A stretch of DNA of 48,629 bases from Nitrosospira multiformis. GTDB lineage: Bacteria > Pseudomonadota > Gammaproteobacteria > Burkholderiales > Nitrosomonadaceae. The notes under the pieces are model-generated. The model was not told the origin of the DNA and made no database searches. It saw only the letters and a program-made list of their open reading frames with translations. Where the stretch lies: positions 1 through 48,629 of the forward strand of contig JAFKJB010000022.1 of assembly GCA_017306155.1 (NCBI GenBank). The letters run 5' to 3'. Both the position numbers and the translations under genes were made by a program. Shown piece after piece: positions 364 through 15,156 of this stretch. Within the stretch, counting starts at the first letter, position 1; each line of letters opens with the position of its first letter.

Positions 364-3300
364 TCATGAGCATTCGATCTCGTCCAGCAATTTCGTTTCA
401 ACCAATTCGGCCAAACCTGCAACGGTGGGAGACCGGAAAAAGTCCGCAGGACGCATATCGATCCCGAAAACTGCCCGCACTCTCGAGAGCAGTTGAATAC
501 CCAGCAGGGAATCTCCCCCCAGTTCAAACAGGTTGTCATGAATGCCGACAGCATCCATGCCCAGTAGACCCTGCCAGATCTCTGCGATGCTCTGCTCCAG
601 CTCGCTCTCGGGAGCGACAAAGGCCGTACCCAGGGTAGGTCGTGGATAACGTTGCTGGCGTTCCTGCTCAGGCTGCCGGCTCTCGGCGAACGCGGAAGGC
701 TGCCCGACAAGGTCTACCAAGTCCTCCTGCGTCTGGTTGAGCCGGCCATGCAAATCGAGGGTGGAGACGATCACCTGGGGTCCAGTCGCGTTATTGACGA
801 TGTGCACGAAAGCCTCAGCGCCTTCTTTCGGCGGAATTCCCATCCCCTCGGGCATTGCCATATTGGCTGCCATCCCCACGTCCCGCCAGCTATCCCAGTT
901 AACGGATATGACGGGAAAGGTGAAGCCGCCCTGGGCAGAGCGGGTGGCTCTGCGGGCGACAGCGTCGAGGTAGGCATTGGCGGCACAATAATCAACCTTG
1001 CTGAGGCCACCTGCAATGGCTGCCAGCGATGAGCACAACAGCATGAAATCCAGGGAGGTATCCCTGAATACGGCTTGCAATGCCTGCGTTCCCTGTATCT
1101 TGGGCGCAAATACTTTCGCCACCATCTCCTCGGTCTTTACCGAAATGAGGCCGGTGCCGACTTCCCCCGCGGAATGTATAACGCCGTTGATGGCCCCAAA
1201 GTGCCCACAGGCCTGCGCCGCCGCCGCCTTCAACTCCACCTGGTTCGTCACGTCGGCCTGCAAGACCAGCACTTTTGCACCCAGCGCCTCCAGGTGCATG
1301 ACCTGCTCGATCCTGCTGCGGGTGGAATCCCCTTTTTCCGCCCCCGAAATCAGATCAGGCCACTGCTCCCTGGCAGGGAAACGTGAACGGCCCAGCAGTA
1401 CCAGCTTTGCGCAATAGTGCTGCGCCAGATGCTCGGCCAGCGCCAGTCCAATGCCTCCCAGCCCACCGGTAATCAGATAGACGCCCTCATCCCGCAGGCA
1501 GGGGCGTGCTTTCCCGGGCACTCGGCCTTGGATGGGTTCGAAGGTCTGAATCCAGCGGTGTGGCCCCCGGTAAGCGATCATCGAGGAAACGGGTTCTGCT
1601 TGAGACTCGGCTACAAGCTGACGGACGAGCCGGTTTTTTGCAATACCGTCGCCTGCTGGCAGCTCGACATCAACCAGCCGGCAGGTCAGGTAGGCATATT
1701 CCTGGGGAATGACCTTGCAGGGCCCGAGCAACAGTGCTTTTTCTGGGCGAAGGGATTCGCTGCCGGTAACATCTTCAAGCTGGTCGGTGATGACCGTAAT
1801 TTCGACCTTTGCGTTGCTCGGGATCACCTGTTTGGTGCTCTCCAGCGCCTGCGCGAGATAAAACAGACTGAAGAAATTCCTGGCCTCGATTTCTACTCCA
1901 TTTTCGACCTGGCTTTCCCTGTCAATCTGCGTGCCGTCATTTCCGGTCAGGCTCCACAAGTGAAAGATATGTCCGAGGGTCCTGCCATCCTCGCCGATGT
2001 TGCGCAACAGAAGATCGTAATCCCGCTGTTCTCCTGGGCGGACAATATAGTGGTCCTTGTCCTGACGGTGAAAGGCCGGGCCCGCGGAAACGACGACAGG
2101 CTTTATCCCCAGCGTAAGCAAATACTCTATCAGGGCCAGCCCGAGGGAATGGTCATCCTTGAAGAGGATGAATGATCTTCCCGGGTCCCGGACGCTCCCT
2201 TGTTCAATGCTGTCCGAGCGGCGCCACGAAGGGGTGTAGAACCATTCATCGAACGGTCGGGCTGCGGGGCGGCCATTATCCGTCACCTGCTGGCGTGCAC
2301 CTGGCTCAAGGCCAGCAATGAGTCGAGGCATGTCTTCTTCCCCCGCTGCCTTTGCAGTCCTCGCGGTGTTCCCGCTCTTCTGGCTGCCGGGCTTGATCCA
2401 GTATGACTGGCGCTCGAATGGGTAGGTCGGCAAGGAGATGCGACGGCGGCGTTCGTCAGCGTAAAAACTCCCCCAGTCGATATCGACCCCGGCAAGCCAT
2501 AGTTTCCCGAGGCAAAGATAAAAATGTGCTTGAGACTGATTCGCTCTGCCAGGATGAGGCAAGGATGGAAGAATAAGATGCTCCGGTTTTGCCTCGGAAT
2601 GGCGCCGCGCAAGGGTAGTCAATGTTTCGCCCGGCCCCACCTCCAGCAGGATGCGATCTGGATTGCCCAACAGCTCGCGCAGCCCATCGTCGAAGCGTAC
2701 CGTGCCGCGCACATGCCGTCTCCAATAGCCGGGGTCGGTGGCTTCCTGATGGGTAATCCAGTCGCCGCTGAGATTGGAAAGAAAGGGAATCCGCGGCGAG
2801 TGCAATTCCATTGCGGAAACCAGCCCCATGAAAGCCGGCAACATCGGCTCGACCAGAGCGGAGTGAAATGCACGGGAGACGTGAAGGCGCCGCACCCCAA
2901 TCCCTTTATTGTGCAGATCAGCTTCCAATGCTTCAATGGCGGAGACCGGCCCTGAAAGGACGCACAACTCAGGTCCGTTGACAGCGGCGAGGTCGCAACC
3001 TTCCGACCTTTCCGACAAATAAGGCGTTATTTCCGCTTCGGGCAACATGACCGCAAGCATGGCGCCCGTCTCCGTCTGCTGGAGCAAGCGTCCACGCAGG
3101 GCTACCAGGCGCAGCGCGTCTTCGAGCGAAAATACACCCGCAAGACATGCCGCAACGTATTCGCCCACACTATGGCCGATCATAGCCGCCGGTTGGATGC
3201 CCCAGGACATCCATAGCTGTGCGAGGGCATATTCGACGACAAAGAGTGCGGGCTGGGTGACTTCCGTCTGTTCGAGGCGTGCGGACAACTCCTTCTTCCG

Positions 3301-5103
3301 TGCCTCATCCCCACCTTCAAGGTTGGGGTCAAGGTTGGGATATAAGGCGGCGCGCAGGTCGAAATTCAGGTGGGGTTCCAGCAATTTGACGCAACGATCG
3401 AATTCCCGCCGAAAAACTGCCTCCCCGTCGTAAAGCGCCCGCGCCATATTGATATGCTGGGCACCCTGACCGGGGAAAAGAAAGACTATGGGACGATTTT
3501 CCGACGCCACCTGTCCGCTAACAAAGCGATCCGCAGACTTCCTTTCCAAAACGCCGAGTGCCTCATCCCTGTCCTGGCACAGCACTACTGCACGGCAGGC
3601 GAAACTTTTTCTTCCCGTTTGAAGGGTATACGCGGCATCGGCAAGTGGTAAACCGGGATGCGCGCGCAGATGTTCGTGCAATCCGGCAATCACCGTTTCC
3701 AGCGCCGTGGGAGTACGGGCCGAGAGTGTGAGCAGCTGACAGGCGCGCGAAGAATTCACGGGCTCTACGGGCGGAGCTTCTTCGAGCACCACGTGCACGT
3801 TGGTCCCCCCGATACCGAAGGAACTCACCCCGGCGCGTCGCGGGGTCGATTCATTCGACCAATGCCTGCTCTCGGTGTTGACGTAAAAAGGGCTCGAGGA
3901 AAAATCGATTTGTGGATTGGGCTGCTCGAAATTCAGGCTGGACGGAAGGGTTCGATGCTTCATTGCCAGGACGGTTTTGATCAGACCCGCGACACCTGCT
4001 GCTGCATCCAGGTGACCTACATTCGTCTTGACCGATCCGATAGCGCAGAATCCACGCCTGTTCGTGCTTTCGCGGAAGGCTTGCGTGAGCGCCGCGATCT
4101 CGATCGGGTCGCCGATCGTCGTTCCCGTGCCATGCGTCTCCACGTAGCCGATCGTGTCGGCTTCCACGCCGGCGATCGCCTGAGCAGCCAGAATCACTTC
4201 CGCCTGGCCTTCCACGCTCGGTGCAGTGTAGCCCACCTTGGCCGAACCATCGTTGTTGATTGCGGACCCTTTGATTACAGCATGAATCGTATCACCGTCA
4301 GCGAGTGCGTCCGATAGCCGCTTGAGCACGACGATCCCCACCCCGCTGCCGATCACCGTGCCGGCCGCCTTTGCATCGAACGCGCGGCAGTGGCCATCCG
4401 GCGACAGGATCGCTCCAGGCTCGTATCGATAACCGCCCTCGTGCAACAGATTGACCCAGACACCCCCAGCCATTGCCATGTCCGCTTCGTGATTGAGCAA
4501 GCCACGGCAGGCGACGTGCACGGCCGCGAGTGAGGTGGAACAGGCCGTCTGCACAGTGATCCCCGGTCCGCGCAGATTGAGCTTGTAGGAGACGGTCGTC
4601 GTCATGGAATCCTTGTTGTTTCCATTCATCAACCCTTGCAGGGAAGAAATGTCGTGCATATCGGAAAACCGCCCGCTGGAAAACAGATTTAGCAGCAGGT
4701 AGGTGTTAACCCCACAGCCGGCATAAACCCCGACGGGGACGCTGCAATTCGACGCGTCATAGCCGGCATCTTCCAGCGCCTGCCAGGCCACCTCCAGGAA
4801 CAACCGGTGCTGCGGGTCCGTTTCCGCTGCCTCGCGCGGGGTATAGCCAAAGAAAGAGGCATCGAAAAGGTCGACGCCGGGCAGTTCGGCACTCGCCTTG
4901 ATATAGTGCGGATCTTCCAGGGTCTTGCGTGAAATCCCTCGCGCCAGGAGTTCCTCGTCGGTAAAGAAAGTAATGGACTCGACTCCATCCCGCAAATTGC
5001 GCCAGAATGCCTCCACGTTATCCGCGCCCGGAAAACGGCCTGCCATACCGATAATTGCGATATCGATATCGTCTCTCTCCGAAAACTCTTCCGTATGATC
5101 CAT
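364..5103 (-). CDS. Type I polyketide synthase module, KS-AT-KR-ACP
   Basis: A single 1579-residue polyketide extension module. Residues about 12-440 are the ketosynthase with the complete triad Cys188 (in TACSTS), His324 (in ETHGTGT) and His364 (in KTNVGHL). Residues about 540-850 are the acyltransferase with nucleophile Ser645 (GHSVGE) and AFHS at 745-748, the form expected for malonyl-CoA selection. Residues about 950-1400 are the ketoreductase including its structural half, with the NADPH loop at 1212-1217 (GGLGGIG) and catalytic Ser1359, Tyr1372 and Asn1376. The acyl carrier protein ends the chain with phosphopantetheine Ser1532 (GGDSL). There is no dehydratase, enoylreductase or room for a methyltransferase, so the unit added should be a beta-hydroxy acyl group. 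Its ATG overlaps the stop of the upstream synthetase (TAATG), implying translational coupling. It follows an A-PCP module, so it should extend an aminoacyl chain to a 4-amino-3-hydroxy acid. Confidence 0.96.
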   Translation of the reverse strand: MDHTEEFSERDDIDIAIIGMAGRFPGADNVEAFWRNLRDGVESITFFTDEELLARGISRKTLEDPHYIKASAELPGVDLFDASFFGYTPREAAETDPQHRLFLEVAWQALEDAGYDASNCSVPVGVYAGCGVNTYLLLNLFSSGRFSDMHDISSLQGLMNGNNKDSMTTTVSYKLNLRGPGITVQTACSTSLAAVHVACRGLLNHEADMAMAGGVWVNLLHEGGYRYEPGAILSPDGHCRAFDAKAAGTVIGSGVGIVVLKRLSDALADGDTIHAVIKGSAINNDGSAKVGYTAPSVEGQAEVILAAQAIAGVEADTIGYVETHGTGTTIGDPIEIAALTQAFRESTNRRGFCAIGSVKTNVGHLDAAAGVAGLIKTVLAMKHRTLPSSLNFEQPNPQIDFSSSPFYVNTESRHWSNESTPRRAGVSSFGIGGTNVHVVLEEAPPVEPVNSSRACQLLTLSARTPTALETVIAGLHEHLRAHPGLPLADAAYTLQTGRKSFACRAVVLCQDRDEALGVLERKSADRFVSGQVASENRPIVFLFPGQGAQHINMARALYDGEAVFRREFDRCVKLLEPHLNFDLRAALYPNLDPNLEGGDEARKKELSARLEQTEVTQPALFVVEYALAQLWMSWGIQPAAMIGHSVGEYVAACLAGVFSLEDALRLVALRGRLLQQTETGAMLAVMLPEAEITPYLSERSEGCDLAAVNGPELCVLSGPVSAIEALEADLHNKGIGVRRLHVSRAFHSALVEPMLPAFMGLVSAMELHSPRIPFLSNLSGDWITHQEATDPGYWRRHVRGTVRFDDGLRELLGNPDRILLEVGPGETLTTLARRHSEAKPEHLILPSLPHPGRANQSQAHFYLCLGKLWLAGVDIDWGSFYADERRRRISLPTYPFERQSYWIKPGSQKSGNTARTAKAAGEEDMPRLIAGLEPGARQQVTDNGRPAARPFDEWFYTPSWRRSDSIEQGSVRDPGRSFILFKDDHSLGLALIEYLLTLGIKPVVVSAGPAFHRQDKDHYIVRPGEQRDYDLLLRNIGEDGRTLGHIFHLWSLTGNDGTQIDRESQVENGVEIEARNFFSLFYLAQALESTKQVIPSNAKVEITVITDQLEDVTGSESLRPEKALLLGPCKVIPQEYAYLTCRLVDVELPAGDGIAKNRLVRQLVAESQAEPVSSMIAYRGPHRWIQTFEPIQGRVPGKARPCLRDEGVYLITGGLGGIGLALAEHLAQHYCAKLVLLGRSRFPAREQWPDLISGAEKGDSTRSRIEQVMHLEALGAKVLVLQADVTNQVELKAAAAQACGHFGAINGVIHSAGEVGTGLISVKTEEMVAKVFAPKIQGTQALQAVFRDTSLDFMLLCSSLAAIAGGLSKVDYCAANAYLDAVARRATRSAQGGFTFPVISVNWDSWRDVGMAANMAMPEGMGIPPKEGAEAFVHIVNNATGPQVIVSTLDLHGRLNQTQEDLVDLVGQPSAFAESRQPEQERQQRYPRPTLGTAFVAPESELEQSIAEIWQGLLGMDAVGIHDNLFELGGDSLLGIQLLSRVRAVFGIDMRPADFFRSPTVAGLAELVETKLLDEIECS

Positions 5104-8100
5104 TAATGCGTCCTCCCTGCTCTCAGCTTGCGTTGTATGAACGTCGCTCTCTGCCGCTGCGCCCGTTCCTGGTGGCGCGGCAACGGCAGGCGCTCCTTAT
5201 CCGCCTGCCTGTCCTCCTGGCCGAGGAATCTGGCCAGGCTCGCGACAGTGGTATATCTGAAAAGGTCGATAATGGCGATGCGGGTTTTCAGCCGCTCTTC
5301 CAGCTTGCATTGCACCTTGATGAGCAGCAGCGAATGCCCGCCCAGATCGAAAAAATTGTTGTGCAGCCCCACTCGGGGTAGCTCCAGGACTTCCGCCCAG
5401 ATCTCCGAAATCATCGTTTCCACGGCATTGACGGGCGCCTGATAGGCCGCCTCGTCGATCTGCTCCGGCAGGGGCAAGGGCAACGCCTGGCGGTCGACTT
5501 TGCCATTGGGGTTGAGCGGCAGCCTATCGAGCAGCACAAACGAACCAGGCAGCATGTAATCCGGAAGCACGCCGGCAAGTGCAGCCTTGAGCATGGATGC
5601 GTTGAGTGTTACCCCCTGACGCGAGGCGACGCAGGCGATGAGGCGCGTTCCATTGGGGCCTTCCTGTGCCACTACCGCCGCCTCGCGAACTCCGGGCTGC
5701 GCCAGCAACTGACCCTCGATTTCGCCCAATTCAACCCGGAAACCGCGAAGCTTGACCTGATGATCGAGCCGGCCCAGATATTCGAGTTGGCCGCCATTGC
5801 CCTCATTGCGCCAGCGGACCCGATCTCCAGTGCGGTAAAGGCGGCTCCCGTCCGGCACGAAAGGATCGGCAATGAACCGGTCCGCGGTGAGACCGGGACG
5901 ATCGAGGTATCCGCGGGCCAGCCCAGTTCCGCCAATATAGAGTTCTCCGGCGCATCCCGGAGGCACGACATTCAAGTCCTCGTCGAGCACGTACAACCTG
6001 CGATCTCCAACGGCACGGCCGATAGGCGCGAACTCGCCGATGAAGCCGGCCTCAGCAGCTTCAGACGCATGGGCTACCCAGGCGGCTGGGGTGATGACCG
6101 TTTCAGTCGGCCCGTAGGCGTTGACCAGCCGGGCATGCGGGAAAGCCGCCTGTGTGGCGGCCAGGTCGGCTGCGAACCATGCTTCGCCGCCTGCTATGCA
6201 AGTGTGCACCGACGTGGCACTACCCTGCATCAAGGGAAGCAGCATTCGCAGATAAGCGGGCGGCAAGTGCAGGGTGGTTATGTTGTGCTTTCCGATCCGG
6301 TCGACGAAACCGTCGCCGGCAAGGTCGCGTGTCGATGAAAGGACAAGCGTCGCGCCTTCGCACAGGGGCGTGATCCACTGTTCCGCAGCCGCGTCGAAAT
6401 TCATCGAGAAAAACATGAGTTCGCGATCACCGGGGCGTACGCCGTAGATTTCCCTGATCGCTGCCAGATGCATCGCCAGGGGACCATGGCTTACTCCTAC
6501 CCCTTTCGGTCTGCCGGTCGACCCGGACGTGTAGATGACATAAGCGAGATTATCGGGATGCAGAGCAATCTCCGGGTTAGTCTCGGCTGTCCCATTCATA
6601 CCGGAGCCATCCAGTTCCAGCACGGAAAGCTTTTCCGGATCGGGGATGCGATTCCTGATATGAGATTGCGTCAACAGCAACCGGATGCCGCTGTCCTCAA
6701 CCAGATAGCTGAGGCGCTCGCGCGGATAGTCGGGATCGAGCGGTACATACGCCCCTCCTGCCTTGAGTATGCCCAGCAGGCCGACGATCATCTCGATGGA
6801 ACGCTCTACCGTAATGCCGACCCTTACGTCCGCCTTGACTCCCAGGGTGATTAAATGGTGTGCGAGCCGGTTGGAGCGGCGATTCAGTTCTTGGTAGGTT
6901 ATTTCGGTATCGTTGAAAACCAGGGCGCAGACATTCGGACGTTCTTCCGCCCGGCGCTCTATGCGCCGGTGCACAGCTTCATGAACGGCTTGATGGGCAG
7001 CTTCATGCGCGACTGGATGAGCGGATTGATGGAACATCCCGCTACCTGAACCGCGCCCTACAGCATTCGTTCCCCATGCTCCCCATGCTCCGAGCTGCGC
7101 CATATCGCTTTCGCTCAACAGAGGCACATCGCCGATGAGCGTTTCCGGCTGCCCCGCCATTGCGCGCAGCAGGGTCACATAATGGCGTGCCAGGCGCTCG
7201 ATCGTACGGGTATCGAAGAGCTCCGACGCATAGATGAAGCTTGCATGCACGCTTCCATCAGGTGACTCGATCGTTTCCACCGTCAGCTCGAACTGTGCAG
7301 CCTGCTCGCCCAGCGGATAATCAACGATCTTCAGTCCCTTGATTCGATCGAACTTGCGCCGATCGCTTACCAGGTGATTAAGGGTCACCTGGAAGAGTGG
7401 CGTCCGGCTCAGGCTTCTTTCCGGCTGCAATGCTTCAACCAGTTGCTCGAAGGGCAAGTCCTGATGTGCCTGAGCGTCGATTGCCGCTTCCCTGACCTGC
7501 GCGAGCAGAGCTGATAATGTCATGCGGCCTTCGATCTTTGCGCGTAAGACCTGCGTGTTCACGAAAAAACCGACCAAATCCCGGGTTTCAACCCGGTTGC
7601 GATTGGCCACCGGCACGCCTATACGGATGTCCTTTTGTCCCGTGTAACGGTAGAGCAAAGCCTGAAAACCCGCCATCAGCGCCATGAAAAGGGTTGCGCT
7701 GTGGCTATCGGGACGCTGGACAAGGCTTCGCAGACTGCCCAGCACATCCGGTGGCAGGTCGAAAGAATGACGTGCTGCCTGATAATTTGCCACCGGCGGC
7801 CGTGGATGGTCGGCCGGTAGTTCCAATACCGGATGGTCGGTACCCAGGTAATCACGCCAGTAGGCCAATTGCCTGTCTTTCTCGCCTGCTTCCAGCCAGC
7901 TGCGCTGCCATTCGGCGTAGTCCGCGTAGCGGATGGGTAACGGGTCGAACTGCGGCAACTGCCCCTGGGCATGAGCCAGGTACCCGACGGCGAACTCGTC
8001 AAGCAACACCTGCGCCGACGCCCCGTCGGAGATGATGTGATGCATGGCTATGACCAGGATATGCTCATCCTGCGCCAGCCGGATCAAGACTACTCGCAGC

Positions 8101-10511
8101 AATGGACCCTGCGTCAGATCGAAGGGAGCGGAAATGATCTGGTCGGCCTCCTCTTTCGCACGCGCTTCACGCTCCGATGGGGGGCCGCTATTCAGGTCGA
8201 TATGCGAAATATCCACCCTCGACGCCGGCTTCAGTACCTGCTCGGCGGAACCCTCCCCTCCCGGTCGGAAAACGGTGCGCAAGGATTCATGCCGTGCGAC
8301 CAGCCCATCAAGGATGGTCTGCAGCGCTTGCGCGTCCAGGGAACCCGACAGTCGCAGCGCCTGCTTGATATGATACGCGGTAGACGTCCGGTCCATTTGC
8401 CACAGAAACCAGAGACGTTGCTGGCCAAACGAAAGCGGCACCGGTGCGTTGATTCTGGCCGGCGTGGGGAACAGGCTAATGCTCGCAGTACGCCTGGGAG
8501 CACCGGCAGATAGAATGCGCCTGATTTCCTCCGCACACGCGTTCATTTTGGGATGCTCGAACAGGCTGCGGAGCGTGAAATCGATCTGCCAATGCTCAGC
8601 AATACGCGCCACAGCCTGAACTGCGGAGAGTGAATTTCCGCCGCTGGCAAAAAAATGCTCCTCGCGCCCCACCCCACGGCGATTCAGCACGGTTTCCCAG
8701 ATACCCGCGAGCGAAATTTCGACGTCATCCGTCAACGTGGCTGCAGACGTAGACGCAGGCCGACTGCCACCCAGCACGAAATTGCCAAACTCATAGATGG
8801 CATACGCATCGAGTGTGCGCTCGCGCCAGCCCTGCCGGCAGGCGGCGCGCTGCAATTTTCCGCTGGAAGTCTTTGGCAAGCCTCCCGGATTCAGTAATAC
8901 CGCTACCGAGAGCGGCTCATGACAGCTTCCGCTCACGGCCTCGCTCAATACCTGCACCAGGGTTTCGACAGCGATAAGCTTCTGCATGCCGCGAGATATT
9001 TCCACGGCCATCCCGATTCCTTCCCCGTTTTCGGTTTCTACGGAGAACGCGGCCACTCTTCCCTTCCGTGCCGCCTCGACCTCGTCTTCGACCATCTGCT
9101 CGAGGTCCTGCGGGTAGACGTTCTGCCCCCTTATGATGATGAGATCCTTATGGCGGCCAGCGATGTAAATTTGCCCGCCGTAAAAGAATCCCAGATCGCC
9201 CGTGCGCAACCAGCGTTCGCCCTCATGAGTAACGAAAGTGTCTGCCGTTTCCCTGGCGCGCCGCCAGTAACCATGGGTCAAGCTTGCCCCGGCTATCCAG
9301 ATCTCACCCACGTGACCGTCCGGCAACGCGGCGAATGTTTCGGCATTGGTGATCCTGACAGTGTGACCTGGTACGGCAGCGCCGCAGGCGACCAGCCAGA
9401 TGCCTTCCTCCGCCACCTCGGCGCGGCCTTGTGCCAGCGTCTCAGTCGAGAAGCAACGCGCCTCTACCCCGTCTCCGGACGTGCCACCGGTCATCATCAG
9501 TGTTGCTTCCGCCAGTCCATAACAGGGATAAATGGTCCCAGTGGAGAATCCGACGGGCGCGAAGCGCTTCATGAACGCGCTCATTGCGCTGTAACGTACG
9601 GGTTCCGCTCCGCAAAAAGCGACGCGCCACGTCGATAAGTCCAGTCCTTGCAATTGCGCATCCCTCACACGCTCCACACACAGTTGAAAAGCGAAGTTTG
9701 GCGCGCCGCTGATCGTCGCCCGGTGGCGCGAGACGGTCTCAAGCCAGCGTACCGGTCGCTCGATAAAAAACTTGGGTGTCATCAGGACGCCGGGGATGCC
9801 GCGATGGATCGGCTGCAGCAAGCCGGCAATCAGGCCCAGGTCGTGGTAAAGAGGCAACCAACTGACGAATACGTCGCCTTCGCTGATGGACAAGCTCTGC
9901 TCGTAAGCCTGTGCATGCGCCATCAGGTTTCCATGGCTCACCATGACTCCCTTGGGCGTGGAGGTAGACCCGGAGGTATATTGCAAAAACGCGATATCTC
10001 CCTCTTCGGGAAAATATTCGCGCCATGCGGAGGCGTTATCGCGTTTCACCGTATCCACAGTCAGCACGGTCGCATAAGAAAACTGCTCCACTGAGGCACG
10101 GGCAATCAATGGCAAGATTTCGCTCGTGGTCAATATGCAGCGGGCCTCAGCATCGGCTGCAATGGCAAGCAGGCGCGCGAGGTGCCGTTCGCGCACCATC
10201 TCCGGCGGAAAAACGGGCACGGCGATAAGGCCTGCGTAAAGACAGGCGAAGAAGCCGATTACGTAATGCTCATCATTTTCCATGAGCAGCAGGGCGCGCT
10301 CGCCTGCCGAAAAGCGATCCTGCAAAATGGCCGCGAGTGCGCGGACATGCTGATCCAATGTAGCGTAGTCGAACGCTTTTTCCACGATTCCCTCGCTTTC
10401 CTGGTGCACTGCTGTCAAGGCGAGGTTTGTGGGACGTGCCGACGCGAGACTACGAAGATGCGTAACCAGGTTTTGCGGATAAATGCGGTGAGAACTTGAC
10501 CTTGGCGTCAT
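5103..10511 (-). CDS. Lipopeptide-initiating synthetase: fatty acyl-AMP ligase-ACP-C-A-PCP
   Basis: This 1802-residue protein starts a lipopeptide. Residues about 10-580 are a fatty acyl-AMP ligase (YTSGSTSTPKG near 178, GAPNFAFQLC near 270, CYGLAEATLM near 330). An acyl carrier protein follows with Ser627 (GGNSL). Then comes a condensation domain with intact HHIISDG at 824-830, an adenylation domain (YTSGSTGRPKG near 1327, NAYGPTE near 1465, YRTGD near 1559) and a peptidyl carrier with Ser1727 (GGHSL). Specificity-pocket residues read off by motif alignment to GrsA are D-A-E-H-I-G-A-I-T; I do not recognise this code with certainty. The chosen ATG at 10511 has GAAAGG six bases upstream; the longer frame from 10583 opens with TTG and adds 24 residues lacking homology. 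A His/Ala-rich 12-base repeat lies between the C and A domains. The stop overlaps the PKS start. Confidence 0.96.
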   Translation of the reverse strand: MTPRSSSHRIYPQNLVTHLRSLASARPTNLALTAVHQESEGIVEKAFDYATLDQHVRALAAILQDRFSAGERALLLMENDEHYVIGFFACLYAGLIAVPVFPPEMVRERHLARLLAIAADAEARCILTTSEILPLIARASVEQFSYATVLTVDTVKRDNASAWREYFPEEGDIAFLQYTSGSTSTPKGVMVSHGNLMAHAQAYEQSLSISEGDVFVSWLPLYHDLGLIAGLLQPIHRGIPGVLMTPKFFIERPVRWLETVSRHRATISGAPNFAFQLCVERVRDAQLQGLDLSTWRVAFCGAEPVRYSAMSAFMKRFAPVGFSTGTIYPCYGLAEATLMMTGGTSGDGVEARCFSTETLAQGRAEVAEEGIWLVACGAAVPGHTVRITNAETFAALPDGHVGEIWIAGASLTHGYWRRARETADTFVTHEGERWLRTGDLGFFYGGQIYIAGRHKDLIIIRGQNVYPQDLEQMVEDEVEAARKGRVAAFSVETENGEGIGMAVEISRGMQKLIAVETLVQVLSEAVSGSCHEPLSVAVLLNPGGLPKTSSGKLQRAACRQGWRERTLDAYAIYEFGNFVLGGSRPASTSAATLTDDVEISLAGIWETVLNRRGVGREEHFFASGGNSLSAVQAVARIAEHWQIDFTLRSLFEHPKMNACAEEIRRILSAGAPRRTASISLFPTPARINAPVPLSFGQQRLWFLWQMDRTSTAYHIKQALRLSGSLDAQALQTILDGLVARHESLRTVFRPGGEGSAEQVLKPASRVDISHIDLNSGPPSEREARAKEEADQIISAPFDLTQGPLLRVVLIRLAQDEHILVIAMHHIISDGASAQVLLDEFAVGYLAHAQGQLPQFDPLPIRYADYAEWQRSWLEAGEKDRQLAYWRDYLGTDHPVLELPADHPRPPVANYQAARHSFDLPPDVLGSLRSLVQRPDSHSATLFMALMAGFQALLYRYTGQKDIRIGVPVANRNRVETRDLVGFFVNTQVLRAKIEGRMTLSALLAQVREAAIDAQAHQDLPFEQLVEALQPERSLSRTPLFQVTLNHLVSDRRKFDRIKGLKIVDYPLGEQAAQFELTVETIESPDGSVHASFIYASELFDTRTIERLARHYVTLLRAMAGQPETLIGDVPLLSESDMAQLGAWGAWGTNAVGRGSGSGMFHQSAHPVAHEAAHQAVHEAVHRRIERRAEERPNVCALVFNDTEITYQELNRRSNRLAHHLITLGVKADVRVGITVERSIEMIVGLLGILKAGGAYVPLDPDYPRERLSYLVEDSGIRLLLTQSHIRNRIPDPEKLSVLELDGSGMNGTAETNPEIALHPDNLAYVIYTSGSTGRPKGVGVSHGPLAMHLAAIREIYGVRPGDRELMFFSMNFDAAAEQWITPLCEGATLVLSSTRDLAGDGFVDRIGKHNITTLHLPPAYLRMLLPLMQGSATSVHTCIAGGEAWFAADLAATQAAFPHARLVNAYGPTETVITPAAWVAHASEAAEAGFIGEFAPIGRAVGDRRLYVLDEDLNVVPPGCAGELYIGGTGLARGYLDRPGLTADRFIADPFVPDGSRLYRTGDRVRWRNEGNGGQLEYLGRLDHQVKLRGFRVELGEIEGQLLAQPGVREAAVVAQEGPNGTRLIACVASRQGVTLNASMLKAALAGVLPDYMLPGSFVLLDRLPLNPNGKVDRQALPLPLPEQIDEAAYQAPVNAVETMISEIWAEVLELPRVGLHNNFFDLGGHSLLLIKVQCKLEERLKTRIAIIDLFRYTTVASLARFLGQEDRQADKERLPLPRHQERAQRQRATFIQRKLRAGRTH
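6965..7036 (-). repeat. Degenerate 12-base tandem repeat inside the synthetase gene
   Basis: Five to six imperfect 12-base units (for example cttcatgaacgg, cttgatgggcag, cttcatgcgcga, ctggatgagcgg) encode a four-residue protein period such as AHEA, AHQA, VHEA. The repeat lies in the linker between condensation and adenylation domains, where length changes are normally tolerated. Confidence 0.75.
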
Positions 10512-10687
10512 AGTGAACCTTTCAATGGACTGACTTTGAAACCTTTTCAGGCGTGATCTATCTGGCGAACGAACTGATCGCAAACCCGCGGATATGCAGC
10601 CCGACCTGGCAGCGACCCGATCCTGACAGAGGAAGTCGGAATGTCAGTTGCCACACCTTGCGGCTTTTCCCTTGAGCTGAAGGCCAG

Positions 10688-11473
10688 TCATGGGTTTGGA
10701 ATGCCAGGGCCGCTGCATAGCCAGCGGGTACTAGGAGGCGCCAAGCCTGTATTCCCTTGGTATGCGTCCGGATCGTGCAGCGCCATCCGCTGCGCGAGCA
10801 CGTGGAGAAAAGCCTCTTCGTGCTGCCGGAGAAAGAAATGCCCTCCTTCAAACAGGTCCAGCGAGAAATCTTCTGTAGTTTCGGATCGCCACGCTTCCAG
10901 CTTCGACTCATGAATTTCGTCGTCACGGCCCCCGAAAACATGAATTGGCAGCGGCAAGGGCAGGGATTGTATATGGCGGAAACTTGCGCAGACGCGGTAG
11001 TCGGCGCGCAGCAGGCTGAGCGTCATGGACAACAATTCGGGGCTCTCGAACACTTCTTCCGGCGTCCCCTTCTGCTTGCGCAGATCGGTGATGAGCGACG
11101 CGTCGGTATTCTTGTCCGCATAGCGCCGCCAGTCCTGCCGGGAGGGTGCGGCACAGGCCGACATGAACAGGGCAAGAGGCAAGGCTTTTTCTCTCTTGCG
11201 CAGGGAATGGGTAATTCCAAAAGCGAGCAGCGCCCCCATGCTGTGTCCGAAGAATGCGTATCGCCGGGGCGGATACGCCTCGAGCTCATCCGCAAGGCGC
11301 TCGACCAGTAAAGGGAAGCTTCTCTCGAATGTTTCATCCAGGCGGCCTCCACGACCGGGCAACTCGACTGGCTCCACGTGCACCCAGGAAGGCAGCCTGC
11401 ACCGCCAGCGCAAATACATGACCGAGCTCGCGCCCGCGCAAGGCAGTGTGAAAAGCGTCAAAGGTGCAGGCAT
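10688..11473 (-). CDS. Type II thioesterase of the NRPS/PKS operon
   Basis: A 261-residue alpha/beta hydrolase of the GrsT/external thioesterase family, which clears misprimed or stalled acyl groups from carrier proteins. The nucleophile is Ser78 in GHSMG, the acid is Asp184 or Asp185 in GGRDDE, and the catalytic histidine is His212 in EGGHFFL. The amino end FTLPCAGASS matches the usual strand and oxyanion region of the family. Its ATG overlaps the stop of the MbtH-like gene (TAATG). It is followed after 176 bases by the FAAL-NRPS gene. A C-terminal tail of about 25 residues beyond the usual fold is present. As a stand-alone protein it is more likely to edit than to release the final product; a release domain is probably on the synthetase beyond the left edge. 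Confidence 0.93.
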   Translation of the reverse strand: MPAPLTLFTLPCAGASSVMYLRWRCRLPSWVHVEPVELPGRGGRLDETFERSFPLLVERLADELEAYPPRRYAFFGHSMGALLAFGITHSLRKREKALPLALFMSACAAPSRQDWRRYADKNTDASLITDLRKQKGTPEEVFESPELLSMTLSLLRADYRVCASFRHIQSLPLPLPIHVFGGRDDEIHESKLEAWRSETTEDFSLDLFEGGHFFLRQHEEAFLHVLAQRMALHDPDAYQGNTGLAPPSTRWLCSGPGIPNP

Positions 11474-11703
11474 TACCTGGCTTCAACTGAACATTGTTCA
11501 TCCATGAAGCGCCTCAGGCTGAGGGGACGCATATCCGTCCAGACTTCCTCTACATGTTCGAGGCAGGTTTTCTTGTCTCCCTGCACGCCGGTGTCACGCC
11601 ATCCTCCCGGAATGGCCTTCCACTCCGGCCAGATGGAGTATTGCTCTTCATGATTGACCAGCACGCGAAACGTCCCGTCTTCGCGGTCGAAACAACTTGT
11701 CAT
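11473..11703 (-). CDS. MbtH-like protein, adenylation-domain chaperone
   Basis: This 76-residue protein carries the family signature: [12 protein letters not shown] near the start, PGGW in the middle and [10 protein letters not shown] near the end. MbtH-like proteins bind adenylation domains and are often needed for their solubility or activity, so the partner is probably the A domain of the synthetase downstream. The ATG at 11703 has AAGGGG about eight bases upstream. It is the first gene of the operon, and its stop overlaps the thioesterase start. The promoter candidate lies about 108 bases upstream. Confidence 0.96.
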
Positions 11704-11810
11704 GCTTGTTCCCCTTATGTCTGCAAATAATAGATGGCGCTCCAGATTCCCTGGACGAATTCCAAGGAATGGAAATGCGTCTTAATCTTATTTGGAATCT
11801 TGTTAGCTAG

Positions 11811-11834
11811 ACGAATAAGGATTCGAAGAATTTA
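11811..11834 (-). promoter_or_regulatory. Iron-starvation sigma promoter candidate (PvdS/OrbS-type box) for the NRPS/PKS operon
   Basis: On the minus strand the sequence is TAAAT, 16 bases, then CGTC. This is the spacing and both elements of the PvdS iron-starvation box (TAAAT-N16-CGT), and is close to the related OrbS promoter. It points toward the MbtH-like gene, whose ATG is about 108 bases downstream. The matching type of sigma factor is encoded at 13111-13620. No convincing sigma-70 promoter was found here on this strand. That it is used is an inference. Confidence 0.6.
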
Positions 11835-11992
11835 GGAAAATGACTGATAGCCTGGAGGGATTTTTGATCAAAGCCAGCTATAATCCAACAGGACGAAATT
11901 TTTTCGCAGCCTGTTCATCGCAAAGATGCTGCGATAAAACCCCTTCCGCCAGCCGGCAGTAGTAATATGAGTAGTGCATCCAGGTACGAGCA

Positions 11993-12571
11993 ATGGCATT
12001 GAATGAACTGAAATCTGATACCCATCGGCAGTACGGACAATTCAGCTGGAGCCACCTAGTCAAGGGGGCGATCACCAGCAGAACGTTTCGGGTGGTCGTA
12101 ACGATGAGGCTGTGCCAGGCGGCGGCGGCGGAGCCAGGCCTCCTGCGCCTTACGCTCTTCCCTTTGAAAATTATGCATCGTTTGTCGACGCACCTGGCAG
12201 CTGTGGACTTTTCCTGGCGGACCAGGGTTGGTGCCGGCATAGCCATAACGCATGGCTGGGGCCTGGTTGTGAATGCAGGCGCAAGGATTGGTAATAACGT
12301 AACCCTTTTTCATGGGGTTACCCTTGGGCGTCGTGATCGCATTTCCTCTGACGGAAATCGTCAAACTGAATACCCCGTCATTGAGGACGAAGTCTGGATC
12401 GGACCCCACGCCATCATCGTCGGAGGAATAACCGTAGGTCGCGGAAGCAGAATCGCAGGAGGCGCATTTGTTACAGAGAGCGTTCCTCCTTATTCAATTG
12501 TATCGGGAAATCCCTCTGCGATTGTTAAAGCGAATTGTACGCCGGATGTAATGAATCCCGCTCCCCTGTGA
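11993..12571 (+). CDS. Left-handed beta-helix acyltransferase, serine O-acetyltransferase-like
   Basis: A 192-residue protein whose second half (about 78-175) is built of hexapeptide repeats and contains HGWGLVVNAG followed by NVTLFHGVTLG, the histidine-bearing active-site segment of the CysE/serine acetyltransferase family. The final hexapeptide coils end with GNPSAIVK, as in many sugar and serine O-acetyltransferases. The amino part is shorter than that of true CysE (about 270 residues) and resembles the short SAT-like proteins found in polysaccharide and secondary-metabolite clusters. It points the opposite way from the synthetase operon, 290 bases from the MbtH-like gene. It may acylate a building block or the finished product, or serve cysteine synthesis. 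The start is an ATG with only a weak AGGT upstream. Confidence 0.8.
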   Translation: MALNELKSDTHRQYGQFSWSHLVKGAITSRTFRVVVTMRLCQAAAAEPGLLRLTLFPLKIMHRLSTHLAAVDFSWRTRVGAGIAITHGWGLVVNAGARIGNNVTLFHGVTLGRRDRISSDGNRQTEYPVIEDEVWIGPHAIIVGGITVGRGSRIAGGAFVTESVPPYSIVSGNPSAIVKANCTPDVMNPAPL

Positions 12572-12746
12572 TGAAACGTGCAGGTCATTCAGAGATATCC
12601 AGTATGGGTGCCGTTTTGCTGACGCACGTCTGAAAACCATTCTGTGCTGTAAGCACGGATAAACCAACTCGACCGCGAACAACTCGATGTGATGTAGCAG
12701 AGAGAACATTACGCAATCTACCGACCACAGTATTATCTCTTCTTCA

Positions 12747-12962
12747 TCAATCCTCGGCAGGCGGTTCAAGGGGCGGAACAAGGCCGGTGAGGAGCCAGAG
12801 ACGGGAAGCCTCGTCGTAAGCCTTTCTATGTGCAGGATTCATGTTCAGCCAATCTATCAGTTCTTCCCGTTCAGCGGGGCTGAATGACTCATGCTCACGT
12901 ATCACCCACTCGACTGCCGTATGCCACACCTGATCCGAATCCTGGTCCTCTGAATTCGCCAC
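12747..12962 (-). CDS. Short FecR-type anti-sigma protein (DUF4880 domain only)
   Basis: The protein is essentially one FecR N-terminal domain: AVEWVIREHESFSPAEREELIDWL followed by NPAHRKAYDEASRLW, the DUF4880 signature that binds ECF sigma factors in the cytoplasm. Full-length FecR/FpvR proteins are over 300 residues and add a membrane helix and periplasmic sensor; here the frame stops soon after the domain and no membrane segment is visible. I chose the GTG at 12962 (71 residues), which has AGGTGAG just upstream; the frame is open to a TTG at 13070 (107 residues). It lies directly downstream of the sigma gene on the same strand, so it is probably co-transcribed and acts as a soluble anti-sigma factor. 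How it would sense a signal is unclear. Confidence 0.8.
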   Translation of the reverse strand: MANSEDQDSDQVWHTAVEWVIREHESFSPAEREELIDWLNMNPAHRKAYDEASRLWLLTGLVPPLEPPAED

Positions 12963-13110
12963 GGTCTCACCTTGATGCTCCCCCGATGAATCTTCGAATT
13001 CATCAATTTTTCGCAGTTTTAAACTTACCCGAAACAAGTATAACGGATACCGCTGTACACGTGCTTCCAACGACAGGAGCGATCAAGCCGGGAGTGGTTA
13101 AGCGTGAAAA

Positions 13111-13620
13111 CTAGGGGGATTGGAGAGCGGCGCGGCAATGGTCTATTGCCTCGTGGATCAGGATATTCACCAGCGATGTCGAAATAGCCAGCTCGGCAGC
13201 AATTGCACGGTGCGTCTGCCCTTCCAGACGATGGAGTTCAAAAGCGCGCCTCGTCCGCTCCGGAAGCTCCGATATTGCTTTTGCAACCAGTTTCAGATGC
13301 TGGCGGCCGATGACCGTCGCTTCGGGCATTCCGATGGGGGATGGCACATGCAGCCCGTCGTCTTCTCCCTCGAAAAGATTCAATTCGAATGAAATGCGCC
13401 GGTGATGATCGATGGCAAGATTGCGAACTATCTGGAACAGGTATGCCACAGGCTGCTTGACATGGAATACTGCCGCTGCTTCCGATACTTTGAGATAGGC
13501 ATCCTGCACCACATCCTCCGCCCGCTCGGGATTACCGAGAATCTTGAGTGCCGCCCAGCGCAACTGGGATCGATGGGCCATGAAAACTTCGCTCAATTCA
13601 ACCTGCTCTTCCACAATCAT
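13111..13620 (-). CDS. ECF sigma-70 factor, iron-starvation (FecI/PvdS-like) type
   Basis: A 169-residue ECF sigma factor. Region 2 lies near residues 12-80 (QLRWAALKILGNPERAEDVVQDAYLKV, then PVAYLFQIVRNLAIDHHR), and region 4 near 115-165 (LPERTRRAFELHRLEGQTHRAIAAELAIS). No extra C-terminal domain is present. The ATG at 13620 has GGAG nine bases upstream; the open frame extends to a TTG at 13653 but this lies close to the mapped promoter. Its promoter overlaps a strong Fur-box match, a DUF4880 anti-sigma gene follows on the same strand, and a matching promoter box lies upstream of the NRPS/PKS operon. These place it as the likely activator of siderophore genes in low iron. Confidence 0.92.
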   Translation of the reverse strand: MIVEEQVELSEVFMAHRSQLRWAALKILGNPERAEDVVQDAYLKVSEAAAVFHVKQPVAYLFQIVRNLAIDHHRRISFELNLFEGEDDGLHVPSPIGMPEATVIGRQHLKLVAKAISELPERTRRAFELHRLEGQTHRAIAAELAISTSLVNILIHEAIDHCRAALQSP

Positions 13621-13657
13621 CACCGCATCTCCACAGAAAGCATATAATAACAATAAC

Positions 13658-13676
13658 GATAACTATTCTTATTATC
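13658..13676. promoter_or_regulatory. Fur box between the sigma-factor gene and the RND pump operon
   Basis: Read on the minus strand the site is GATAATAAGAATAGTTATC, which agrees with the 19-base consensus GATAATGATAATCATTATC at 15 positions (14 when read on the plus strand). Its outer arms GATAA/TTATC are perfectly symmetric. It covers the -10 element of the sigma-factor promoter and the -35 element of a divergent promoter, so iron-loaded Fur should block both. Confidence 0.75.
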
Positions 13677-13699
13677 ATATAGCGATTTCTATTTTACAA
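13671..13699 (-). promoter_or_regulatory. Sigma-70 promoter of the ECF sigma-factor gene
   Basis: TTGTAA, a 17-base spacer and GATAAT on the minus strand, about 50 bases upstream of the ATG at 13620. The -10 hexamer is part of the Fur box. Confidence 0.6.
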
Positions 13700-13700
13700 T
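13672..13700 (+). promoter_or_regulatory. Candidate divergent promoter of the RND pump operon
   Basis: TTATCA, a 17-base spacer and TACAAT on the plus strand, about 67 bases before the outer-membrane factor ATG. It overlaps the sigma-factor promoter almost base for base, and its -35 element lies in the Fur box. Each hexamer departs from consensus, so the call is tentative. Confidence 0.4.
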
Positions 13701-13767
13701 ATGGATCAACTTCCGGCCCCGAAGGATATTGCGAATATCCTCATTTTTGGGATTGGCTTGAACCTAA

Positions 13768-15156
13768 ATGTCCAGAATATTTGCGATAATAATTGTCTCG
13801 ATTTCCCTCGGCGGAATTGGCGGTTGCAAAACATCTCCACTGAGAAATCCTGGAGATGCGGGCGCAGCAGTCCCAGCCGGATGGACGGCGGATAAAGGGA
13901 CTCCACAACCGACTCCGGAAAACTGGATAGAAATTTTTGGCGACCCTAATCTGAGCGCCCTGGTTAACAGCGCCCTGGCGGATAATTATCAACTGAAGGC
14001 CTTGGCGGCGCGGGTAAAAGCGGCGGTGGCCCAGGCACGCATAGATGGTGCAGGCCGATGGCCGCAACTGCTCTTTGCCCCCGATTACCAATATACGCAA
14101 ATCCGCGAGGAGGGATTCGGTGCGGCCCGATTCAGTGTGTTTGAAGCATTGTTCAGCCTGAGCTGGGAGCTGGATGTGTGGGGACGGATAAGCGACTTCC
14201 AGCAGGCGGCAATAAGGGAGGCGGATGCAACCGCAGCCGATTTTCAGGGCGCGCGCTTGTCTCTGGCCGCAAGGGTGGCGCAGAGTTATTTTGAGCTTGC
14301 CGAAGCCAGGCTGCAAGCAGCAGTGGGGGAACGATCAGTAAAGGACCGAAGCATTATTGTCGACCTGGTGCGTGGACGCTTTGCCCGCGGCTTGACGAAA
14401 GCGCTCGACGTGCGCCTGGCTCTCACCGACCTTGCCAATGCGGAGGCTGAGCTTACCCAGGCGCGCAACCAGGTTCAGATCATTGCACGCCGGCTGCAAG
14501 TGCTGCTGGGGCGCTATCCGGAAGCCGTGCTGACGGCAACTGCGGAACTGCCCGAGCTTCCACCCGATATGCCAGCCGGGTTGCCCTCGGAATTGCTGGA
14601 AAGACGACCGGACCTCGTCGCTGCCTATGATCGTTTGCTGGCTGCCGACTCCCGTCTGCAAAGCACAAGAAAATTACTGCTGCCGCGTGTTGCCCTGACT
14701 GCCGCCGGAGGAACGCGCAGTCCAGCACTGACTGAATTGGTGGATCCCAGGGCACTCGCATGGAACGTGCTCATCGGGCTGGCGCAACCGATATTCACGG
14801 GAGGACGCATCCGGGGCGAGATCGAACTTGACAAGGCGCAGACCGAACAGGCCCTTAATCTGTACAAGGACACGGCACTCAATGCTTTCCGGGAAGTGGA
14901 GCAGACGCTGGCGGCCGACGAATGGCTACGGAAGGAAGAAAAAGCCTTGAGAAATGCGGTTGAGCAAACTGAAGCCAGCCGTAAACTGGCAGTCTATTCC
15001 TATCAGCATGGGTATATCGAAATTCTTACACTGCTGGATAGCTACCGCAGCACCCTCAATGCCCAGAGCGCCCATCTTTCTGTCAAGCGCCAGCTTCTGA
15101 GCAATCGAATCAATCTTTATCTGGCACTAGGAGGCAGCATTTGCGAGGCGTGCTGA
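13768..15156 (+). CDS. Outer membrane efflux lipoprotein, NodT/TolC family
   Basis: A 462-residue outer-membrane factor. It opens with a lipoprotein signal peptide ending in the lipobox GGIGGC (Cys20), so the mature protein should be lipid-anchored in the outer membrane, as in OprM/NodT proteins. Two repeats of the OEP domain follow: the first around PNLSALVNSALADNYQLKA and FSLSWELDVWGRI, the second around LLERRPDLVAAYDRLLAADS and GLAQPIFTGGRI. Both are standard marks of the NodT family trimeric channel. Its last 16 bases overlap the membrane fusion gene. It would provide the exit duct of the tripartite pump. The ATG has only a weak ribosome binding site. Confidence 0.95.
   Translation: MSRIFAIIIVSISLGGIGGCKTSPLRNPGDAGAAVPAGWTADKGTPQPTPENWIEIFGDPNLSALVNSALADNYQLKALAARVKAAVAQARIDGAGRWPQLLFAPDYQYTQIREEGFGAARFSVFEALFSLSWELDVWGRISDFQQAAIREADATAADFQGARLSLAARVAQSYFELAEARLQAAVGERSVKDRSIIVDLVRGRFARGLTKALDVRLALTDLANAEAELTQARNQVQIIARRLQVLLGRYPEAVLTATAELPELPPDMPAGLPSELLERRPDLVAAYDRLLAADSRLQSTRKLLLPRVALTAAGGTRSPALTELVDPRALAWNVLIGLAQPIFTGGRIRGEIELDKAQTEQALNLYKDTALNAFREVEQTLAADEWLRKEEKALRNAVEQTEASRKLAVYSYQHGYIEILTLLDSYRSTLNAQSAHLSVKRQLLSNRINLYLALGGSICEAC

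Follow-up and report, generated by a model that had tools for sequence, protein, structure and literature searches.

A conserved TAAAT-N16-CGTC box upstream of mbtH in Nitrosospira multiformis is the probable promoter of an OrbS/PvdS-like siderophore regulon

An NRPS/PKS operon of Nitrosospira multiformis is preceded by a short box that matches the consensus of the Pseudomonas iron-starvation sigma factor PvdS, TAAAT-N16/17-CGT, which raises the question of whether this box is the operon's promoter and, if so, which sigma factor reads it. The stretch of DNA analyzed here (hereafter, the window) is 48,629 nucleotides long and represents the whole contig. On its minus strand, positions 11834 to 11810 read TAAAT-TCTTCGAATCCTTATT-CGTC, i.e., TAAAT and CGTC separated by 16 bases, with the first C of CGTC lying 110 nt from the ATG of mbtH. 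The original prediction had located the two elements upstream of the first operon gene and on the operon's strand, and both points were borne out; the site itself was correct, but the interval that had been given (11811 to 11834) stops one base short of the final C, and the pattern fixes nine bases rather than eight. The box falls within a 289-base gap (11704 to 11992) between mbtH and a hexapeptide acetyltransferase gene on the plus strand. From the comparisons described below, we consider it very probable that the box is a siderophore-operon promoter read by the neighboring extracytoplasmic function (ECF) sigma factor, within a three-promoter regulon under the control of Fur and iron. The features of the locus are listed in Table 1.

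Table 1. Features of the mbtH locus, by position in the window
Feature	Positions	Strand	Evidence and remarks
Type I PKS (KS, AT, KR, carrier)	364..5103	-	Domain matches
NRPS: N-terminal fatty-acyl-AMP-ligase (FAAL)-like domain, then condensation, adenylation, carrier	5103..10583	-	Pfam and NCBIfam
Thioesterase	10688..11473	-	Pfam PF00975, E 3.6e-47
mbtH, first gene of the operon	11473..11703	-	Pfam PF03621, E 1.8e-24
-10 element CGTC	11810..11813	-	CGTCT in 38/38 motif-bearing loci, usually inside ATTCGTCTA (11816..11808)
16-base spacer of the mbtH promoter	11814..11829	-	Constant spacing across loci
-35 element TAAAT of the mbtH-operon promoter	11830..11834	-	Alignment of family loci; TGTAT or TGAAT in 22/38
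Hexapeptide (CysE/EpsC-like) acetyltransferase gene	11993..12571	+	Lies between the DUF4880 gene and mbtH, divergent from the latter
Free-standing DUF4880 protein, FecR N-terminal-domain-like	12747..13055	-	Pfam PF16220, E 3.3e-10; start uncertain
ECF sigma factor, iron-starvation kind	13111..13620	-	PF04542, PF08281; PRK07037, 230 bits (cut-off 190)
Predicted Fur box GATAATAAGAATAGTTATC	13658..13676	-	15/19 to the E. coli consensus; overlaps a GATAAT -10

The start of the NRPS gene is uncertain, with an in-frame ATG at 10511; its best homologues align from residues 3-26 onwards, and the four closest relatives carry one in-frame stop. The operon reaches the end of the contig after the PKS gene. 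In a relative (G026), two more NRPS genes lie downstream of the PKS gene, and the neighborhood holds an ornithine N-monooxygenase, a GNAT acetyltransferase, a TonB-dependent receptor and an ABC transporter. Given the gene content of this relative, the product of the operon is most likely a hydroxamate siderophore. The hexapeptide acetyltransferase gene was found only in the window and in three loci (L074-L076) of the 41 sequences compared, and appears to have been inserted directly upstream of the promoter, as the close relative L073 lacks it.

As a bare motif, the box does not stand out. The exact pattern occurs once in the window, compared with an expectation of 0.24, and a match turned up in 19 of 100 shuffles; nor is it enriched in the genome of origin, which contains 12 matches as opposed to 20 for a reversed control. 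Seven of the 11 other genomic matches overlap open reading frames of at least 90 codons. Within the 289-base gap and on the right strand, however, the pattern arose in just 14 of 20,000 dinucleotide shuffles, so that the claim that such a match is unlikely by chance holds for the gap but not for the motif match alone. Similarly, a looser pattern, TnnATT-N13-TTCGTCTA, was not enriched over 100 genomes, with 51 among the matches listed as against approximately 65 reversed ones (the sum over the control columns). Of these 51 listed matches, 31 were mbtH promoters, whereas a shifted control with a spacer one base longer gave no mbtH promoter among the 36 matches listed. It would thus appear that only the placement of the motif, not its frequency, is enriched.

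We then compared the window with 40 stretches from the same family. Of the resulting 41 sequences, 39 hold the mbtH start, and in 38 of these a single CGTCT is found 58 to 178 bases before the ATG. The 38 motif-bearing loci fall into 27 clusters at 80% identity; T[A/G]nAn stands at the 16-base spacing in 26 of them, the remaining cluster having TGTTA, whereas all other spacers from 10 to 24 together produced one T[A/G]nAn fit. Weighted information was low in the flanks and peaked at T-G-n-A-T-T-C and at ATTCGTCTA, with a weaker conserved stretch downstream of the -10 element. Between the window and L073, the upstream DNA diverges almost to the -35 element, and the core is identical. Chance can be set aside as the source of the pattern, since two elements at one spacing are conserved across divergent loci of the family. 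In the exception, L089 from genome G054, 64 bases separate the end of the sigma gene from mbtH, with no such promoter in between. The cluster of G054 is rearranged, with L089 (contig C32) near the acetyltransferase gene, and the thioesterase and FAAL matches on another contig (L090, C16).

The spacing and CGTC of the predicted box therefore hold across the family, but TAAAT as a conserved -35 element does not. Among the 38 loci, the -35 form is TGTAT in 16, TGAAT in six, TAAAT in five and another in 11; the five with TAAAT are the window and L073-L076, so TAAAT represents a local form. The mbtH promoter is also kept where the sigma gene is split into two pieces (L097, G062:C61), where it is inverted relative to mbtH (G077, L105), and in two genomes (G072 and G082; L099, L104 and L112) in which it lies approximately 14 kb away or on another contig.

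Two further promoters of the T[A/G]nA-N16-CGTC type were identified, one before the acetyltransferase/ornithine-monooxygenase/TonB-receptor genes and the other before a divergent ABC-transporter gene; neither was visible to the original prediction, as both are located on another contig. Of 100 family genomes, 45 had a match to the acetyltransferase; 38 of these matches were close orthologues, and 30 were fetched as loci. In all 30, T[A/G]nAn-N16-CGTCTT lies upstream of the acetyltransferase gene, the site having been chosen by best score; around it the sequence hardly varies, L317 excepted. A profile built from the mbtH and acetyltransferase sites, and without the ABC-transporter sites, revealed, in at least 13 genomes, the third site, which shares this intergenic region and is directed towards the ABC-transporter gene. 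This site was present in 27 of 29 testable loci (absent in L317 and L320; L305 was left out of the count because its sequence ends too early), with a score reached by 0.28% of shuffled regions. The -35 element at the two sister promoters is as a rule TAAA followed by A, T or C. The three sites of the genome of origin read TAAAT (C31), TAAAA (C33:10720-10696) and TGAAT (C33:10837-10861), and only the mbtH site fits the exact TAAAT pattern.

Other candidate targets were considered and rejected. The RND export genes (from 13768 on) were discarded because the profile is strong in the window only at mbtH (1.8e-05; next best, 0.26), and a second target in G035 (L204) because the site sits inside a coding frame. 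Paired divergent sites with no match to the acetyltransferase were observed in G050:C2 (approximately 788040-789589) and G058:C6 (approximately 836395-837941), where another enzyme may have replaced it. An identical TAAAT-N17-CGTCTA was seen at G047:C6:54005 and G092:C1:607110, approximately 7 kb from other NRPS matches; these two genomes showed no match to a sigma gene of the neighboring type.

The original prediction also held that the window carries a sigma factor of the general PvdS type, in line with both sigma70 domains and a PRK07037 match (the best NCBIfam model) above cut-off. Its likely start is the ATG at 13620, preceded by GGAG, and not the TTG at 13653. In 37 of 39 loci, the fetched stretch contains both the sigma gene and mbtH, which lie on the same strand in 36, with the DUF4880 gene and, in the window, the hexapeptide acetyltransferase gene in between. 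Sigma matches were found in 43 of 100 genomes, of which 40 were retained after dropping partial or weak ones (G011, G081 and G083). The best profile site reached E<=0.003 in 36 of these 40 genomes as against one of the 60 others; the former fraction is in part a consequence of building the profile on these sites, unlike the latter. At E<=0.01 the counts were 37 and four, and at E<=0.1 they were 38 and 14. The single sigma-less genome with a strong site (G060) is an 80% complete draft holding parts of the cluster. Of the sigma-bearing genomes above 0.003, G057 and G080 have sites with weak scores, G054 is the rearranged case, and G088 has a different NRPS and, in the profile search, no strong promoter site.

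Similar findings were obtained outside the family. Among 83 loci of distant relatives, mbtH lies near a sigma gene in eight. Six of these are from Burkholderiales (Eleftheria, three Rhizobacter, Roseateles and Variovorax) and share the order sigma - DUF4880 - mbtH, with TGAAC-N16-CGTC before mbtH in five and TAAAC-N17-CGTC in Eleftheria; the 16-base form was absent before mbtH in Azotobacter (L115) and Methylocaldum (L187). In a tree of sigma factors from the fetched relatives, the six Burkholderiales proteins group with 14 family sigma factors at 100/96, with L115 and L187 outside. The comparison supports the proposed assignment of the box to the promoter class of PvdS-type sigma factors, and suggests that the neighboring sigma factor is the one that recognizes it.

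The sigma gene itself is preceded by a predicted Fur box, as had been claimed. The box overlaps the -10 element (GATAAT) of a sigma70-like promoter, and one of 2,000 shuffles gave as good a box. By the E. coli consensus, the sigma-gene boxes scored 13-15/19 in seven loci of group g1, window included, and 11-14/19 in seven loci of group g3, several of the latter not being significant.

Next to the sigma gene lies the gene for the DUF4880 protein, of approximately 100 residues and with no other Pfam domain at E<=0.001. DUF4880 is the sigma-binding N-terminal domain of FecR-like proteins. The gene is present in 16 of 18 g1 loci with mbtH, the window included (missing in L086 and L089), and was not detected in 22 g3 stretches. 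An AlphaFold model (102 residues, from ten sequences) had a mean pLDDT of 70, with block values of 84-92 over residues 41-90. Its top PDB match was the cytoplasmic domain of the anti-sigma factor PupR (5cos_C; rmsd 1.5 over 52 columns, TM 0.77 by target length), at an E of 1.5. Judging from its domain, the DUF4880 protein probably binds the sigma factor in the cytoplasm. According to passages of PMC9249621, FecR N-terminal fragments of approximately 50 residues act as pro-sigma factors, and that of FpvR inhibits PvdS and FpvI. Nor is the pairing of sigma factor and DUF4880 new, as the listing for an NRPS cluster of Halomonas in PMC10291192 includes a sigma factor and a DUF4880 protein as well as one resembling MbtH, and an ECF-DUF4880 module is described for Stutzerimonas in PMC13037486. 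More tentatively, the protein might be a soluble, membrane-free FecR/PupR sigma-binding domain that sets sigma activity from inside the cell, such that this lineage would keep an OrbS-like regulon with a cytoplasmic partner in place of the membrane anti-sigma factor of Pseudomonas or the built-in cysteine iron sensor of Burkholderia; the second genus would have no such partner and instead a Fur-like operator just downstream of the mbtH -10 element.

The box thus combines two elements at a constant spacing, is conserved, and co-occurs with the sigma gene and a hydroxamate-type NRPS cluster. We infer from these features that RNA polymerase carrying the ECF sigma factor (13620..13111) reads the box, that transcription starts near 11801, and that the system answers to iron. 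With ample iron, Fur would repress the sigma gene; under iron limitation, the sigma factor would be made and would turn on three T[A/G]nA-N16-CGTC promoters, i.e., those of the mbtH operon, of the acetyltransferase/ornithine-N-monooxygenase/TonB-receptor genes and of the divergent ABC-transporter gene. The box would accordingly drive the siderophore assembly operon, comprising mbtH, the thioesterase, the FAAL/NRPS and the PKS, plus further NRPS genes as in G026.

An alternative is that a different sigma factor, another ECF or sigma70, reads the box and that the neighboring sigma gene has some other role. A -10 element of the CGTC type is a common feature of ECF promoters, and the genome of origin has two other weak matches to the sigma model (36.6 and 28.1 bits; cut-off 190). 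Strong sites nevertheless track the neighboring sigma gene across genomes, the gene shares a stretch with mbtH in nearly all family loci and in the six Burkholderiales loci, and no sigma70-like promoter was listed for the mbtH gap when 11400..14000 was scanned with the consensus, all of which makes this alternative unlikely. We regard as slightly less probable again the idea that Fur is the main direct regulator of the siderophore operons, with the conserved bases forming part of Fur operators. In its favor, the acetyltransferase promoter has a conserved sequence resembling a Fur site, AATGAGAAnnATTATT (reverse strand), within its spacer, and in the second genus most loci carry the dyad AATAAGAAGCATTCTTATT directly after the mbtH -10 element. 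A core is common to these two sequences and the first-genus sigma-gene boxes, a fit that is only suggestive because the core was chosen with the sites already in view. By the plain 19-base consensus, however, the operon boxes are not significant (9-12/19 over the mbtH regions scored), and the dyad was rejected as a Fur box on that measure. It is broken in the window's clade, and the mbtH region of the window has no such box, with eight of 11 core bases, a value reached by 25% of random 90-base windows. At the ABC-transporter promoter, 10 of 11 core bases were found in one of nine loci scored and seven to nine in the rest, yet the sigma elements are present there.

Least credible by far is a chance match, or a stretch conserved for another reason such as an RNA leader. 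The single match in the window and the unenriched genome would fit such an explanation, but not the retention of both elements at one spacing in 26 of 27 divergent clusters, nor their recurrence at two other promoters of the same gene cluster. Recognition by the neighboring sigma factor therefore remains the reading that we favor.

AMO subunit A is encoded in seven of eight family genomes searched, on which basis the family is taken to consist of ammonia oxidizers; three equally scoring copies were present in each of the seven relatives, and the draft genome of origin gave no match, its AMO probably having been lost in assembly. A 2022 review states, in the part drawn on here, that siderophore production by ammonia oxidizers has not been investigated in vitro, and notes iron-related sigma/anti-sigma/TonB-receptor sets in Nitrosomonas europaea (PMC9693385); siderophore synthesis genes are reported for N. 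communis in a passage of PMC4714114. In the portions of the literature covered, including PMC3050691, PMC4714114, PMC4786657 and PMC9693385, we met no account of ammonia oxidizers having a regulon of the PvdS/OrbS type. Iron scavenging in the family seems to be regulated along much the same lines as in Burkholderia and Pseudomonas, and a three-promoter regulon with a named sigma gene makes iron scavenging by ammonia oxidizers directly testable. The locus also offers a natural series of differing -35 elements that a single sigma factor apparently reads at a fixed spacing, and a case of the FecR sigma-binding domain as a separate small protein.

With regard to known systems, the window shows the following features of the OrbS/PvdS class (ECF09, now in ECF243): sigma70 regions 2 and 4 of the ECF type, a sigma gene close to mbtH of an NRPS siderophore cluster and under a predicted Fur box, and target promoters of the form TAAA(T)-N16/17-CGT(C), exact in the window and T[A/G]nAn-N16-CGTC at three promoters. 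In the relevant passages, ECF09 sigma genes are described as lacking an anti-sigma gene and as often adjacent to mbtH (PMC8908255). OrbS is described as being repressed by Fur, as acting at three promoters, one of them PorbH, and as sensing iron through cysteines at its C-terminus (PMC9023288); PMC4786211 covers the consensus for OrbS and how it was used in B. xenovorans. Like the OrbS system of Burkholderia cenocepacia (ornibactin) and its MbaS/MbaF relatives, the present one has an ECF sigma gene that is preceded by a predicted Fur box and located with mbtH in an NRPS hydroxamate siderophore cluster, and a few dedicated promoters of the TAAA...CGTC type. It differs in that the window sigma factor, ending in HCRAALQSP, has no C-terminal four-cysteine cluster (one or at most two Cys in the C-termini compared), in the free-standing DUF4880 gene of most g1 loci, in the TGTAT or TGAAT -35 element of mbtH in most family loci, in the Fur-like stretch inside the spacer of the acetyltransferase promoter, and in an assembly line that starts with a FAAL-like domain and includes a PKS.

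The iron-starvation sigma class and the promoter layout are shared with the PvdS system of Pseudomonas (pyoverdine), in which PvdS is held by the anti-sigma factor FpvR and signaled by FpvA, as described in part of PMC9249621. Unlike in that system, the gene after the window sigma gene encodes a DUF4880 domain alone, and the TonB receptor of G026 shows no signaling (STN) domain at E<=0.001. DUF4880 and the PupR match of its model (E 1.5) are reminiscent of FecI/FecR-type cell-surface signaling, but here the domain stands alone and the promoters are of the TAAAT/CGTC class. Taken together, the system is best read from its sequence as the regulon of an OrbS/PvdS-like iron-starvation sigma factor that serves a hydroxamate NRPS siderophore.
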